A model generated the notes under the pieces. It saw only the letters and a program-made list of their open reading frames with translations, ran no database searches and was not told the origin of the DNA. From an uncultured Flavobacteriales bacterium (GTDB taxonomy: Bacteria; Bacteroidota; Bacteroidia; Flavobacteriales_D; Crocinitomicaceae): 64,000 nucleotides of DNA. Below are positions 1 to 8,523 of this stretch, piece by piece. Every line of letters begins with the position of its first letter. The first letter of the stretch is position 1. The stretch lies in contig CAJQJL010000035.1 of the NCBI GenBank assembly GCA_905478665.1, forward strand, positions 1 through 64,000. Reading direction: 5' to 3'. A program made the translations under genes and the position numbers.

Positions 1-347
1 TACGATCCAGCATTACAGGGCACTGCAGTTTCGATTATTGTGGACTGAAGCTCATTGTCCTGTCCTGCATTAGCCTCAAAAATAAGATTTGTGAAATCGA
101 CCTGAACGTTTCCCCCTACAGCATTCATCGTAAACGAAAACCAAATCGTGTTGTCTGTCGCAAAACAAAAATTAAAGTCATCTTCGCAGCCAGGGCAAAA
201 GGTTACATTTGCGCTAAGGTTGTTAGCCGAATAAAGGACGCTCGGGCAGAGCTCAAGAGGGGTAGCACAGTTGTTGTTAAGCTCTTGCCCAAAGGCAAAA
301 CTTAGCGAGGAAAACAGCGTTAACAAAAAAATAACAGGAGGCCACAT
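1..347 (-). CDS. Secreted protein, N-terminal part only (runs off window)
   Basis: This is an open frame reading leftwards from an ATG at 345-347 that stays open to the window edge, giving about 115 residues. It starts with a typical signal peptide (MWPPVIFLLTLFSSLSFAFG), followed by a cysteine-rich region with pairs such as NNNCATPLELC and FCPGCEDDFNFC and a WFSF motif. This pattern is common at the N-terminus of large secreted Bacteroidota proteins that end in a T9SS sorting domain. The end of the gene is outside the window, so neither family nor sorting signal can be confirmed. A TAAATTTG element on the minus strand at 385-392 could be its -7 promoter box. Confidence 0.7.
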   Translation of the reverse strand, partial: MWPPVIFLLTLFSSLSFAFGQELNNNCATPLELCPSVLYSANNLSANVTFCPGCEDDFNFCFATDNTIWFSFTMNAVGGNVQVDFTNLIFEANAGQDNELQSTIIETAVPCNAGS

Positions 348-504: not shown

Positions 505-3500
505 ATGAAAAAACTGACTACTCTCGGATTTTGCTTATTTTTTCTAAGCACATCCTTCGCGCAGAAGCTTGATTACGATAGAGATTCAAAATGGTTTTTT
601 GGAATCAATGCTGGTGGTACATGGCATACAACGGATGTAAAGAACAAGACGCATCTTGGGTGGGGATTGATTCTTGGCCGATCGTTCAATTATAATTATG
701 GGAAGAAAGTAAGTTTCGACCTGAGACTACGGTATTTGGGTGGTAACTGGTATGGACAGGATTACGACACAACCAACGTAACGGGAAATTCACTCTATTA
801 TCCTGATGGAGAAGTTGCTCAACGGTACGATACGCTTGGGTATACAATCAATAATTTTAACAATGAGGCGCATGAGTTGGGTCTTGAATTTGTTCTTCAC
901 ATAAATAGTTTACGTGAGAAGACAGGATGGGATCCATACATCTTTGGTGGAGCTGGCATCGCATGGAATCAATCACAAGGAGATTTGTATTCGCAGGATA
1001 TCTTGGACACCTTGAACAATTCATACTACCAGTACGCAGCGAATGGAATTTCAAAAGCGGAATTAAATCAGCTCTCGGATGATATTTATGATACACCGTT
1101 GGATGGTCACATTGATGGCTATACGATTAGTTTTGTTCCAAATGTTGGGATTGGTCTGGCGTATCAAGTTGGTCCAAAGTTTTCAATCGGACTTGAGCAC
1201 AGAACAATGTTTTACTTGAAAAACACCTTTGATGGTTACGCTGGAAACTCAACGAAGTGGGGAATGGAAAATGACCTCTACCACTATTCAGGTCTGTTAA
1301 TGAAATTCAACATTGGCAAGAAAAAAACGGGAACCGATGTAACTCCGAATGACGTCACGGAGACCGATTGTCTAGAGCCAAAAATCAATCTTCGAAAGCC
1401 AAGCCAGCGAACAAGTACAGTTGAAGCAACAGATTATACCTTCGAAGCAATTATTAAAAACATCGCTGGACGCAATAATATTCAGTTCTCGGTAAACGGA
1501 AGTATGTCTACCAACTTTACTTACGATGTTTCAAGTGGGAAATTTGAAAGCAAGATTTTGCTTCAACCAGGAGCGAACCAAATTGTTCTTAAAGCATCCA
1601 ATGCGTGCGGAACAGACGAGGAAAAAGTGACCATTAACTATGTGGATTGTGTGAAGCCAGTAGTTAACTTTACCAACCCCGCTAGCAATTCAATTTCAGT
1701 TGATCAAGCCTCATTTGTTGTGAACGCAATAGTGACAAATGCAGACAATATTGAATACCAAGTAAATGGGATGAACTCGAGTAATTATGTGTACTCTTCA
1801 AATAACTTCTCCAGCACAATTACACTGCGAGAAGGAGAGAACACGATTCGTATAATTGCGAGAAATGCATGTGGCAGTGACCAGAAAGTGGTAAAAGTGA
1901 ATTTCACAAATTGTGCAACACCTTTTGTTAGATTGACAAGTGGAACAGGAACGATTACAGTGTCAGAGCCAGTTTATTCTTTCCGTGCTGAGGTTGGAAA
2001 TGTTCAGAGCAAGCAAAACATACAGTTCTTAGTGAACGGTGTGAATAAAAGCTTCACGTATAATCTACAGACAAAGGCTTTCCAAAGTTCGGTTGCACTG
2101 AATCCAGGAGCCAACACTTTGCAGATTGCAGCAAGCAATGATTGTGGAAACGACACAGAAGTGTTAACGGTTGAATATGCGCCATGCGTTCAGCCTGTGG
2201 TATCATTTACACAACCTGCAGGTTCGAACATCACTGTAAATACGTCGACGCAAGTTGTAAAAGCACTGATTCAAGGTGTGTCTTCATCTAGTCAGGTGCA
2301 GATGAAAGTAAATGGGATTGCCCGAATGGGAGGAACATACAATGCCACAACAAAGGTTTTTGAGCAAACTGTTTCTTTGAGAGAAGGTGAAAACACTGTT
2401 GAGATAAAGGCAACAAATGCTTGTGGTTCAGATACCAAAACGACAAAAATTACAAAGAGACCGTGTGTTGGTCCTCAGTTAATAATGGTACAACCGTCAA
2501 CGCAAGTGTCGTCAGTTGAAAGCAATGCATTCACACTAAAAACAATGGTTTCCAATGTGAGTTCTGCGAGTCAAATTAAGCTTTTCCTTAATGGGGTTTC
2601 AATACTTGGAGGAACGTATAGCACTGGGACCAATATTTTCCAAAAATCGTTAACCTTAAGACAAGGATCGAATACGATAAAGGTCGTTGCAACAAATGAT
2701 TGTTCTTCGGAAGAATTGATTTATACGATCACTTACACACCATGTGTAGCTCCAAACGTAACGATGACATCTCCTGCATCACCAACAATCGTTGCGAACA
2801 CATCAATGGTCGTTCAGGCAAGAGTTACGAACGTAAGCTCTGCAAGTCAAATACAGCTGACGCTTAATGGACTTACAATAACAGGAGGAACGTATAATGC
2901 AGCGACAAAAATGTTTACTAAAACAGTCAACCTTGTTCAAGGTTCAAATTCGATTGTTGTGAAGGGAACGAATGCATGCGGAACTGATCAGGCGTCTGTA
3001 ACGGCGACTTATAGACCGTGTGTTGAGGCAGCAATTTCTATGATTGCACCAAGCGGTTCTTCAACAAATGTGGACAATGCATCATACACTGTGAAGGCAA
3101 CAATTTCAAATGTTGCTTCAGTTAATCAGGTTCAATTAAAAGTGAATGGATTGACAATAGGAGGAGGTACGTTGAACAACAGTTCGCATCTCTTTGAGAA
3201 GAGCATCACACTGAATCAAGGTGCAAACACAATAACGATTACTGCTTCGAACGATTGTGGGTCGAAGACAGAAACATTCGTGATAAACTTTACACCTTGT
3301 TTGGTTCCAGCCGTTACGATTGTTTCGCCAACGGGACGTAAGATTACGACGGATCAGTCAAGCATATTAATTAAGGCGAAAGTGCTTAATGTTCAGCAGG
3401 CGAGTGAAATTAAGTTAATGCTAAACGGGAAGTTGGTAGCTGGCGGAACGTATAACAGTGGGACTAACATGTTCCAGCAAACGGTGAACCTAGGTACTGG

Positions 3501-4380
3501 ATCCAACAAAATCAATGTTATTGGTAAAACAGATTGCGGTCAATCATTTGCTTCTGTGACGGTAAACTATCAACCTTGTGTTGCACCGACGCTTACGATG
3601 ATTGCACCGACGACATCATCTGTTGAATCCCCAATGGGAACATATTTGGTAAAAGCATCTGTGCAGAATGCAAGTTCAGCCAGCCAGATTAGTCTTACAA
3701 TAAATGGTTCGGTTGTGACAGGTGGAACATTTAATAGTGGAACAGGAATCTATGAGCATAACATTGTTGTTCATGACGCAATTAGTACGGTTGTGGTGAA
3801 GGTAACAACAGATTGTGGCGAGGCGTCAAAAACATTCATAGTTAAGCACTCCCCTTGTCTTGCACCAACAATGGTACTGATCACTCAGTCACCACTGAAC
3901 GTAACAACTGCAACTACAACAATTCAGGCGACAATTATGAATGTCACATCAGCCAATCAGGTTAGTCTGCGGGTTAATGGGGTTGTCGTTACCGGAGGAA
4001 CCTTAAATGTTGCGACGGGTCTATTCCAAAAGACAGTTAATGTAAATGTTGGAGTAAACGATGTCAAGTTGAAAGCGGTTACGGACTGTGGGCAGGTACA
4101 AAAATTGCTTACCATTACCCGCGCTGAAGCGAATTCTCAAGAAGACCCAGGTTCAGGAACGGGAATTGGAATTGGTGGTTCAGGAACGGGTGGAACTGGA
4201 GGAACGGTGACTGGAGGAGGCTCTGATCCTGATCCAGTAGTGCCCCCTGGAGATGAAGGTGGTGAAGGCGGGGAGAAGAGTGGTGAAGATGATAAAGGAA
4301 AGCCGGGCGTTAAACCGAAAAACACCAAACCCAAAGAAGGAGAAGAAGAGGAATCAGGAAAGAAAAAGGGAGGAAAATAA
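505..4380 (+). CDS. Outer-membrane beta-barrel protein with ten tandem Ig-like repeats
   Basis: The 1291-residue protein has a signal peptide ending at SFAQ, then about 260 residues resembling an outer-membrane beta-barrel (alternating aromatic strands, FVPNVGIGLAYQVGPKFSIG). From residue 289 to about 1205 there are ten repeats of 88-93 residues. Each begins with a Cys (CVAP, CVKP, CLVP), contains an xxxNG turn and a GGTYN-type segment, and ends in a NACGSD or DCGQ motif with a second Cys. The tail (about 1210-1291) is glycine-rich and then highly charged (Lys/Glu/Gly). The repeats look like extracellular or periplasmic Ig-like modules, each with a probable disulfide. No catalytic motif is visible. 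It stands alone and is followed by a terminator hairpin. Function unknown; adhesion or cell-wall anchoring is an inference. Confidence 0.85.
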   Translation: MKKLTTLGFCLFFLSTSFAQKLDYDRDSKWFFGINAGGTWHTTDVKNKTHLGWGLILGRSFNYNYGKKVSFDLRLRYLGGNWYGQDYDTTNVTGNSLYYPDGEVAQRYDTLGYTINNFNNEAHELGLEFVLHINSLREKTGWDPYIFGGAGIAWNQSQGDLYSQDILDTLNNSYYQYAANGISKAELNQLSDDIYDTPLDGHIDGYTISFVPNVGIGLAYQVGPKFSIGLEHRTMFYLKNTFDGYAGNSTKWGMENDLYHYSGLLMKFNIGKKKTGTDVTPNDVTETDCLEPKINLRKPSQRTSTVEATDYTFEAIIKNIAGRNNIQFSVNGSMSTNFTYDVSSGKFESKILLQPGANQIVLKASNACGTDEEKVTINYVDCVKPVVNFTNPASNSISVDQASFVVNAIVTNADNIEYQVNGMNSSNYVYSSNNFSSTITLREGENTIRIIARNACGSDQKVVKVNFTNCATPFVRLTSGTGTITVSEPVYSFRAEVGNVQSKQNIQFLVNGVNKSFTYNLQTKAFQSSVALNPGANTLQIAASNDCGNDTEVLTVEYAPCVQPVVSFTQPAGSNITVNTSTQVVKALIQGVSSSSQVQMKVNGIARMGGTYNATTKVFEQTVSLREGENTVEIKATNACGSDTKTTKITKRPCVGPQLIMVQPSTQVSSVESNAFTLKTMVSNVSSASQIKLFLNGVSILGGTYSTGTNIFQKSLTLRQGSNTIKVVATNDCSSEELIYTITYTPCVAPNVTMTSPASPTIVANTSMVVQARVTNVSSASQIQLTLNGLTITGGTYNAATKMFTKTVNLVQGSNSIVVKGTNACGTDQASVTATYRPCVEAAISMIAPSGSSTNVDNASYTVKATISNVASVNQVQLKVNGLTIGGGTLNNSSHLFEKSITLNQGANTITITASNDCGSKTETFVINFTPCLVPAVTIVSPTGRKITTDQSSILIKAKVLNVQQASEIKLMLNGKLVAGGTYNSGTNMFQQTVNLGTGSNKINVIGKTDCGQSFASVTVNYQPCVAPTLTMIAPTTSSVESPMGTYLVKASVQNASSASQISLTINGSVVTGGTFNSGTGIYEHNIVVHDAISTVVVKVTTDCGEASKTFIVKHSPCLAPTMVLITQSPLNVTTATTTIQATIMNVTSANQVSLRVNGVVVTGGTLNVATGLFQKTVNVNVGVNDVKLKAVTDCGQVQKLLTITRAEANSQEDPGSGTGIGIGGSGTGGTGGTVTGGGSDPDPVVPPGDEGGEGGEKSGEDDKGKPGVKPKNTKPKEGEEEESGKKKGGK
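1369..4120 (+). repeat. Ten tandem ~92-residue coding repeats
   Basis: Repeat units begin at residues 289, 382, 470, 561, 654, 747, 839, 932, 1025 and 1118 of the barrel protein, counted from the first Cys of each. The period is 88-93 residues and settles at 92-93 in the second half. Similarity is clear in protein (NxxSASQI, LxxNGxxxxGGTYN, FxxTVxLxxGxN, ACGSD) but only partial in DNA, so the array is old rather than freshly duplicated. Confidence 0.8.
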
Positions 4381-4396
4381 AACGTAAACCAGAATG

Positions 4397-4434
4397 AAAA
4401 GCCGTTCAATTTTTTTGGACGGCTTTTTCTTTTT
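4397..4434 (+). terminator. Rho-independent terminator after the repeat-barrel gene
   Basis: AAAAGCCGTTC pairs with GGACGGCTTTT across a short T-rich loop, with a single G-T pair, and runs into a T-rich tract. It starts 17 bases after the stop codon. Confidence 0.8.
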
Positions 4435-7974: not shown

Positions 7975-8523
7975 TTATATTTTGAATTTACCACTCTTTT
8001 TGCCCAGACTCCAGTCTACTTTTCGCTCGTTGGCCAATCCAATGCGCAGGGAAATGAAAAAAGTGTTTGTTTCAAAATCTCTTTCGGGACGTTTCGGTAA
8101 AAAATGATAACCAGTTTGCAGATGAAGCATCCAAAACTTGAATCCTACGACTGGGGCCACGCCAATAAGGTGTGTGTCAAAGTTTGTTCTAAAAACAAGG
8201 TTGACACCATAGGTTAAAGCAATTCGATGAGGTTTTACCCAATAGCCCATATCGTAACCAAGAATGTTGTGCTTGAAGTTATAGTTGAATCCAGCGTTAA
8301 GGGCATGGTTAATTGCATCTCTTAGCTCAACCTTTTTCCAAAGGTGCTCCACACCAGCCTCAGCGATGAGGTAATTTCCTCGTTGGAGTCCAAAATAAGG
8401 CCCCGTCTTTCTAATCTTTACCTTCAGAAAGGGTTTTTTCTTATCCCAAGAGCCCATAGATTGACCATAACCTAGTGTTGAGAAGAAGAATAAAATGAAA
8501 AAGAGTTGGAGAGTTTTTTTCAT
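7975..8523 (-). CDS. Small outer-membrane beta-barrel-like protein
   Basis: The 182-residue protein begins with a signal peptide ending at TLGYGQ. The remainder alternates hydrophobic and polar residues with many aromatic and Gly residues (YFGLQRGNYLIAEAG, HALNAGFNYNF, MGYWVKPHRIALTYG), as in small eight-strand outer-membrane barrels. I recognise no named family. It lies 76 bases upstream of dprA on the same strand and may be transcribed with it. Its upstream gap, shared with a divergent TonB receptor gene, has a small inverted repeat (AATAG-N7-CTATT) near 8532. Confidence 0.65.
   Translation of the reverse strand: MKKTLQLFFILFFFSTLGYGQSMGSWDKKKPFLKVKIRKTGPYFGLQRGNYLIAEAGVEHLWKKVELRDAINHALNAGFNYNFKHNILGYDMGYWVKPHRIALTYGVNLVFRTNFDTHLIGVAPVVGFKFWMLHLQTGYHFLPKRPERDFETNTFFISLRIGLANERKVDWSLGKKSGKFKI

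Follow-up and report, generated by a model that had tools for sequence, protein, structure and literature searches.

The stretch of DNA considered here (in the following, the window) comprises 64,000 nucleotides of contig CAJQJL010000035.1 from an uncultured Flavobacteriales bacterium of the Crocinitomicaceae (assembly GCA_905478665.1). Close to its beginning lies a gene for a predicted outer-membrane barrel that continues into ten immunoglobulin (Ig)-like repeats, called barrel-Ig in this text. Relatives keep this gene beside genes involved in anchoring surface proteins secreted by the type IX secretion system (T9SS), and barrel-Ig may therefore be an unrecognised part of the anchoring apparatus. 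A previous sequence-only reading had placed the gene at positions 505-4380, which proved exact. The locus is composed of the following features:

505-4380, plus strand: barrel-Ig gene, a single intact open reading frame (ORF) of 1291 amino acids (aa) without internal stop
505-561, plus strand: signal peptide, about residues 1-19 (MKKLTTLGFCLFFLSTSFA), read from the sequence by eye with an approximate cleavage site; helix at residues 2-17 in the model
589-1314, plus strand: predicted OmpA/PorG-type eight-stranded outer-membrane barrel, residues 29-270 (AlphaFold2 models, Foldseek, VIA-align, PorG profile match)
1315-1368, plus strand: linker, residues 271-288, of low confidence in both models
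1369-4134, plus strand: ten Ig-like repeats (Glucodextran_B/Big_7) with two Cys each, residues 289-1210 (Pfam, Cys positions, count by hidden Markov model (HMM))
1369-1647, plus strand: repeat 1, residues 289-381, Cys 289 and 368 (Cys positions)
3856-4134, plus strand: repeat 10, residues 1118-1210, Cys 1118 and 1195 (Cys positions; end from the sequence and the HMM count)
4135-4377, plus strand: low-complexity tail, Gly-rich and then Glu/Lys-rich, ending in KKKGGK, residues 1211-1291 (read from the sequence)
3-347, minus strand: divergent neighbour, of which only the first 115 aa are present as it is cut by the contig end; 71% identical to the start of a relative's 426-aa protein

The N-terminal part had been proposed to be a small barrel of OmpW/porin type. 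Two AlphaFold2 models based on an alignment of 16 sequences agreed with a barrel, and a non-barrel fold was not seen. In the longer model, eight main strands were found at residues 29-41, 52-62, 69-86, 116-133, 142-159, 207-223, 226-236 and 258-270, with an additional short strand at 45-47. The model of the barrel only showed the same eight strands with ends shifted by at most 7 residues. Loops are long after strands 1, 3, 5 and 7, and turns are short after strands 2, 4 and 6. With the barrel-only model, Foldseek and VIA-align led to OmpA, NspA and OprF; Foldseek matched OmpA 1bxw at E 6.9e-7, and VIA-align yielded 9a2m (Z 18.0) and OmpA 1bxw (Z 17.1, root-mean-square deviation 3.1, 161 residues aligned), covering OmpA residues 3-171 in sequential order. 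OmpW was matched as well (Z about 15), but the barrel is better described as eight-stranded and OmpA/PorG-like (Z 17-18). Foldseek results with the longer model were dominated by Ig proteins, and the barrel was not probed by that run; a phmmer search of the barrel against PDB sequences returned just two antibody chains (E 0.41-0.42).

The array of ten two-Cys Ig-like repeats of 88-93 residues (about 92) was recovered as it had been read. Its units start at C289, C382, C470, C561, C654, C747, C839, C932, C1025 and C1118, and 20 of the 21 Cys of the ORF belong to them, two per repeat, the remaining one lying in the signal peptide. The repeats are 20-49% identical to each other (with repeat 10 cut at residue 1180 in this comparison), and the first three were modelled at a predicted local distance difference test (pLDDT) value of about 90 in the longer model. 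Both Pfam families Glucodextran_B (PF09136; 76.7 bits against a cut-off of 27, E 1.3e-21, in 7 stretches) and Big_7 (PF17957; 46.6 bits against 24.1) were matched above their cut-offs, and therefore the repeats are not a chance resemblance. They differ from these families by having two Cys in each repeat and by forming a tandem array on a barrel. Thus, the architecture that had been called unrecognised is built from described Ig-like domains. As for the fusion itself, no description of it was seen among the papers listed by full-text searches, which reached few subscription journals; a search on gliding and T9SS in Crocinitomicaceae yielded a single paper, on taxonomy.

Fused proteins of this kind are no peculiarity of one genome; they occur across the class, with varying repeat number, Cys content and tail. 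The whole protein was matched in 67 of 99 genomes (own genome included), some of these matches possibly stemming from the repeats alone, and of 296 genomes sampled from the whole class, a profile of the barrel matched 52 at E 1e-6, among them the own genome, with 40 at E <1e-29. Outside the own family there were 31 strong barrel-profile matches, and the loci of 20 of these (the class loci) were fetched. All 20 carry a barrel plus Ig-like repeats; at least four repeats were detected in 18, whereas in L165 and L166 a single repeat was detected, and short repeats of another kind contribute many Cys. A second set of 50 loci (the family/order loci) is composed of the window, 40 genome stretches from the 67 matching genomes and nine loci of a separate 16-locus scan that includes Crocinitomicaceae, Flavobacteriales, a Fluviicola metagenome-assembled genome and one genome labelled Chitinophaga pinensis. 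This set contains close relatives (e.g. L039, L040, L043 and L046), some loci truncated at contig ends and a frame interrupted by N (L082); L031, L035 and L037 duplicate L047, L049 and L058 and were therefore excluded, and L036, L038, L042 and L045 were also unused. Counted at a lenient threshold, the 50 proteins hold from 2 to 24 detected repeats, which answers how the repeat number behaves in relatives.

Concerning the origin of the barrel, profile comparisons point to PorG. A profile of 49 barrel-Ig barrels matched one of 33 PorG-type proteins with a probability of 97.9 and E 5.8e-13 over 230 columns, and with 96.1 and E 2.8e-9 once signal peptides were removed. The control profiles reached probabilities of 3-23 against the same barrels; they represented SprF-like, TonB-receptor-like and small secreted protein families, presumed to be outer-membrane barrels, and a family of proteins with a T9SS C-terminal sorting domain (CTD). 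However, a plain HMM of the local PorG proteins picked just one of the 50 barrel-Ig proteins (L073, E 1.7e-6), and the relation is thus a remote one: by sequence criteria, the barrel is a distant relative of PorG and not PorG itself. The window protein shares with PorG the eight strands, a likely periplasmic C-terminus and profile homology along the whole barrel, whereas it lacks a Cys at the PorG position of the tail, adds ten Ig domains and a tail, and scores about 22 bits with NCBIfam PorG (NF052316), where the cut-off is 130. The identity as PorG was also rejected as the own genome encodes a true PorG elsewhere (173.6 bits, above the NF052316 cut-off).

Several further barrel proteins were noted. 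The own genome has a second PorG-like protein (G000:C46:23013-23636, 61.3 bits), and among the matches listed, many relatives have frames of comparable length and score. In genome G028 a 265-aa barrel-only paralogue devoid of repeats is located directly upstream of the barrel-Ig gene (L009 4249-5046, L052 5954-6751), and in another locus the barrel-Ig gene is preceded by a 135-aa reading frame that resembles the barrel (L030 1485-1892).

Long loops alternating with short turns are usual where both ends of a barrel lie in the periplasm, as is established for OmpA with its periplasmic C-terminus. Because an even-stranded OmpA/PorG barrel leaves its C-terminus there, the Ig chain and the basic tail of barrel-Ig most likely also run in the periplasm. 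Of the two directions considered before, inwards or outwards, barrel topology would thus favour the first and make an outward chain less favoured. The comparison to OmpA extends to the general layout of an N-terminal eight-stranded barrel followed by a C-terminal part expected to be periplasmic, but an Ig chain takes the place of the peptidoglycan-binding domain (PF00691), which was not among the Pfam matches of the window protein up to E 1.

The opposite direction would make barrel-Ig an adhesin-like surface stalk, with the Ig chain leaving through the barrel or next to it, in the manner of intimin and invasin (type Ve). The order of barrel first and Ig-like domains after is indeed the same, the repeat number is highly variable, 24 repeats are long for a periplasm, and the modelled Ig chain resembles the adhesin SiiE, though titin just as well (Foldseek, longer model). 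Yet inverse autotransporter barrels such as those of intimin and invasin have 12 strands, while both models show eight main strands, on which ground this identity was rejected, and the inverse autotransporter barrel family was not among the Pfam matches. Moreover, an eight-stranded barrel is too narrow for the passage of a chain of folded domains, and the chain is expected to point inward. Export as T9SS cargo was rejected as well, as no type A or type B sorting domain was among the Pfam or NCBIfam matches of the window protein; by Pfam, the barrel-Ig proteins of three relatives (L031, L033 and L035) also have no T9SS CTD. Taken together, a surface stalk appears unlikely.

Cys pairing was judged by co-occurrence in 616 repeats from the 50 family/order loci. 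Both Cys are present in 418 repeats, neither in 179, and one alone in 19. If the second Cys paired with the first of the next repeat, 50 of 556 pairs would be discordant, compared to 19 of 616 within repeats. As the two Cys are gained and lost together, the disulfide most likely lies inside each repeat, which is consistent with the disulfide stabilisation suggested previously. Among 18 loci listed, the first and the last Cys-bearing repeats of a block mostly hold both Cys. In several genera, the first 5-10 barrel-proximal repeats are devoid of Cys and most later ones have two. Four of the 20 class members (L153, L154, L157 and L158) have no Cys at all, and hence disulfides are not essential to the barrel-Ig design.

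In one group of loci (L061, L062, L063, L070, L072 and L083), six Cys-free barrel-proximal repeats are followed by a two-Cys block; this sharp border is kept in several genera, and the final one to three repeats lack one or both Cys. Another type of short Cys repeat (IC...H..HGD..G.C, a loose pattern) occurs up to 16 times per protein in proteins of 14 of the 50 family/order loci and in all four class loci tested (L160, L161, L165 and L166), further carriers including L055, L052 and L054. That of L033 had no Pfam match, and the pattern is absent from the window protein.

The Cys also raise the question of a connection to gliding. In Flavobacterium johnsoniae, PorG is a predicted eight-stranded barrel with a periplasmic C-terminal tail, the Cys of which forms a disulfide bond to GldK, and SprF was likewise found to be disulfide-bonded to GldK, according to the available part of the report (PMC12635249). 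Barrel-Ig might in the same manner ride on the GldK/PorK track via its chain Cys. The distant homology to PorG would be in line with this, and a Cys is found soon after the last strand in all 30 PorG tails listed (of 33 aligned). SprF-like proteins encoded at the family/order loci have two Cys within their last 30 residues in 27 of 34 tails, and GldJ-type matches are present in all 99 genomes searched (own included), 82 of them above the cut-off, which leaves no contrast for a co-occurrence of barrel-Ig with gliding genes. However, barrel-Ig has no Cys at the PorG position; its first Cys comes 19 residues after the end of the last strand and, as far as co-occurrence tells, has its partner within repeat 1. 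With this and the Cys-free relatives, a disulfide to the gliding track through the repeat Cys was set aside, and a track-riding barrel-Ig is considered quite improbable. In genome G077, an SprB-like cluster was observed with a giant reading frame beside an SprF-like gene, and the stretches fetched from this cluster were not matched by the local HMMs for barrel, PorG or repeats.

The Gly-rich and highly charged tail was found as described, at residues 1211-1291. Tails within the family differ, being Ala/Lys/Glu-rich, Thr/Gly-rich or Pro/Thr-rich, yet share Gly-Gly plus a basic end, and two (L008 and L014) contain long Asp-rich runs. A C-terminal Gly/basic end is present in 28 of 45 complete members as opposed to 13 of 440 neighbour ORFs, and a stricter GG ending in 27 of 45 as opposed to 3 of 440, the motif having been chosen post hoc from inspected tails. 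Many class members finish in a repeat and have no such end.

A link to type IX anchoring comes from gene order. In the window, the barrel-Ig gene is divergent from the truncated gene listed above. In the one member of the corresponding protein cluster that was scanned (L033), the C-terminus is a T9SS type B sorting domain (CHU_C PF13585, TIGR04131); the naming of the SprF-like family by Pfam and NCBIfam rests on the same locus. A member of the CTD-protein cluster is found divergent at position -1 in 33 of 50 family/order loci, a PorP/SprF-like gene at -2 in 31, and both within five genes of barrel-Ig in 33. Since a genome has 14-30 PorP/SprF genes (eight genomes searched), adjacency by chance should be rare, with an estimate of about 1%.

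A second arrangement was found in the families f31 and f51. In five of the 20 class loci (L151, L153, L154, L160 and L161), genes for a CTD protein, an SprF-like protein, a PorE-like protein of about 893 aa and barrel-Ig follow each other on one strand, with gaps of less than about 100 bases in L160. In a sixth locus (L152), a protein of the same type is encoded directly upstream of barrel-Ig at the contig start, and in a seventh (L155), the SprF-like and CTD genes are located two and three genes away on the opposite strand. According to Pfam, the PorE-like protein of L160 is composed of TPR, PD40, CarboxypepD_reg and OmpA domains and that of L153 of PD40, CarboxypepD_reg and OmpA without TPR; the proteins of about 890-990 aa of L151, L152, L153, L154 and L161 match that of L160 at 850-1988 bits. 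This domain order is the one given for PorE in the accessible text of a Porphyromonas gingivalis study, in which PG1035, a type B protein, is in one complex with PorE and PorP, and the C-terminal domain of PorE binds peptidoglycan (PMC9143113). In F. johnsoniae, five operons were reported to combine genes for an SprF-like carrier and a type B substrate with one for a PorE homologue, and one of these substrates gave static foci (PMC12618676). The loci described here resemble these modules, as barrel-Ig genes have type B CTD and PorP/SprF-like genes as neighbours, joined in two families by PorE-like ones. The available sections of the two reports (PMC9143113, PMC12618676) make no mention of barrel-Ig proteins, however. 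The putative link between outer membrane and peptidoglycan that had been suggested for barrel-Ig gains indirect support from six loci of two families, where a PorE-like gene directly precedes the barrel-Ig gene, and none from the 50 family/order loci. Of the SprF-like proteins encoded in the five PorE-bearing clusters, none has a Cys within its last 60 residues; compared to the two-Cys tails of the family/order loci, this would fit static and track-linked flavours of the carrier, and is only a pattern.

From these data, barrel-Ig can tentatively be proposed, with somewhat less than even confidence, to act in the module that anchors type B CTD proteins, as an undescribed periplasmic strut or tether. 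Its barrel would be embedded in the outer membrane, N- and C-terminus both facing the periplasm, beside an SprF-like carrier and the type B CTD surface protein of that carrier. Gene order in relatives suggests the PorP/SprF-like carrier and its type B CTD protein as partners, joined in some lineages by a PorE-like protein that ends in an OmpA-type domain. Chain and basic tail would reach the cell wall or a periplasmic partner, and the surface protein would thereby be held under load, while chain length, disulfides and tail might be tuned by lineage. A wider version, which is more doubtful, regards barrel-Ig as a class-wide fourth component of the type B CTD - PorP/SprF - PorE module. A PorG-derived barrel would have had its tail grown into a periplasmic Ig chain of 2-24 domains, tuned by lineage, that extends from outer membrane to cell wall as a ruler or a strut under load and replaces PorE where no PorE gene is adjacent.

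It is also conceivable, but rather unlikely, that barrel-Ig stabilises the connection of outer membrane and cell wall in general, in a role like that of OmpA, with no special tie to type IX secretion and a neighbourhood that was inherited without function. The OmpA fold, the likely periplasmic C-terminal part and the basic tail would suit such a role, and 15 of the 20 class loci, some of them cut by contig ends, do not have the full module beside the gene. On the other hand, like partners recur in two layouts, divergent in the family/order loci and as an operon in f31 and f51, and the peptidoglycan domain of the OmpA family is absent from the Pfam matches.

A number of points weigh against the proposed strut or tether. 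The evidence consists of sequences and models, from which interaction and localisation of barrel-Ig are inferred. The barrel-only model is of moderate confidence (pLDDT 65.7, predicted template modelling score (pTM) 0.63), the pTM of 0.39 of the longer model does not fix the arrangement of the domains, and the plain PorG search was nearly empty. As an Ig domain is about 4 nm long, ten domains would measure about 40 nm, more than the usual depth of the periplasm; either the chain therefore bends or takes a lateral path, or it is not periplasmic after all. Arrays as long as 24 repeats would far exceed that depth if arranged radially, which would suit a surface stalk better or require a lateral course. 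With regard to the partners, the contig end cuts away those of the window itself, and when the SprF-like gene of a close relative was compared with the own genome, which is 89% complete, its matches were just 25-35% identical. The incomplete gene order in most class loci counts here as well. No PorE-like protein was matched among the neighbour ORFs of the 50 family/order loci, and the PorE connection thus rests on the two other families. The PorE-like proteins of four loci (L151, L153, L160 and L161) furthermore have, by eye, no lipoprotein-type Cys after the signal peptide, in contrast to P. gingivalis PorE.

Downstream of the barrel-Ig gene, directly 3' of its stop codon, a terminator-like hairpin is located at 4396-4428 (14 pairs, loop of 5, then T-rich). 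Owing to this hairpin, the following SurA/peptidyl-prolyl isomerase gene is probably a separate transcription unit, although such hairpin sites are weak evidence alone, with 3 in 4.3 kb versus 3.5 expected by chance. Further along, a 182-aa secreted protein of barrel-like look is encoded on the minus strand (7975-8523); its cluster is present in four loci, and a Pfam scan of the protein up to E 1 gave no match.

As to novelty, a possible counterpart to be considered is SprD, which in the available parts of two papers is encoded in the remF-remG-sprC-sprD-sprB-sprF operon (PMC9723704) and named as needed for gliding of F. johnsoniae (PMC11885536). A search with a primer-derived pattern for SprD matched 1 of 399 genomes at 3 mismatches, compared to 2 for the reversed control pattern. 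Homology to F. johnsoniae SprD, if true, would lower the novelty of the barrel-Ig family.

How type B proteins of the T9SS are retained, fixed to the wall or riding on the gliding track, is an active question, as seen from the accessible portions of recent reports (PMC9143113, PMC12618676, PMC12635249). With its gene in the clusters for these proteins, a conserved barrel-Ig protein would add a new part to the envelope. Moreover, should the chain be periplasmic, as many as 24 Ig domains within the envelope would be unusual in themselves.

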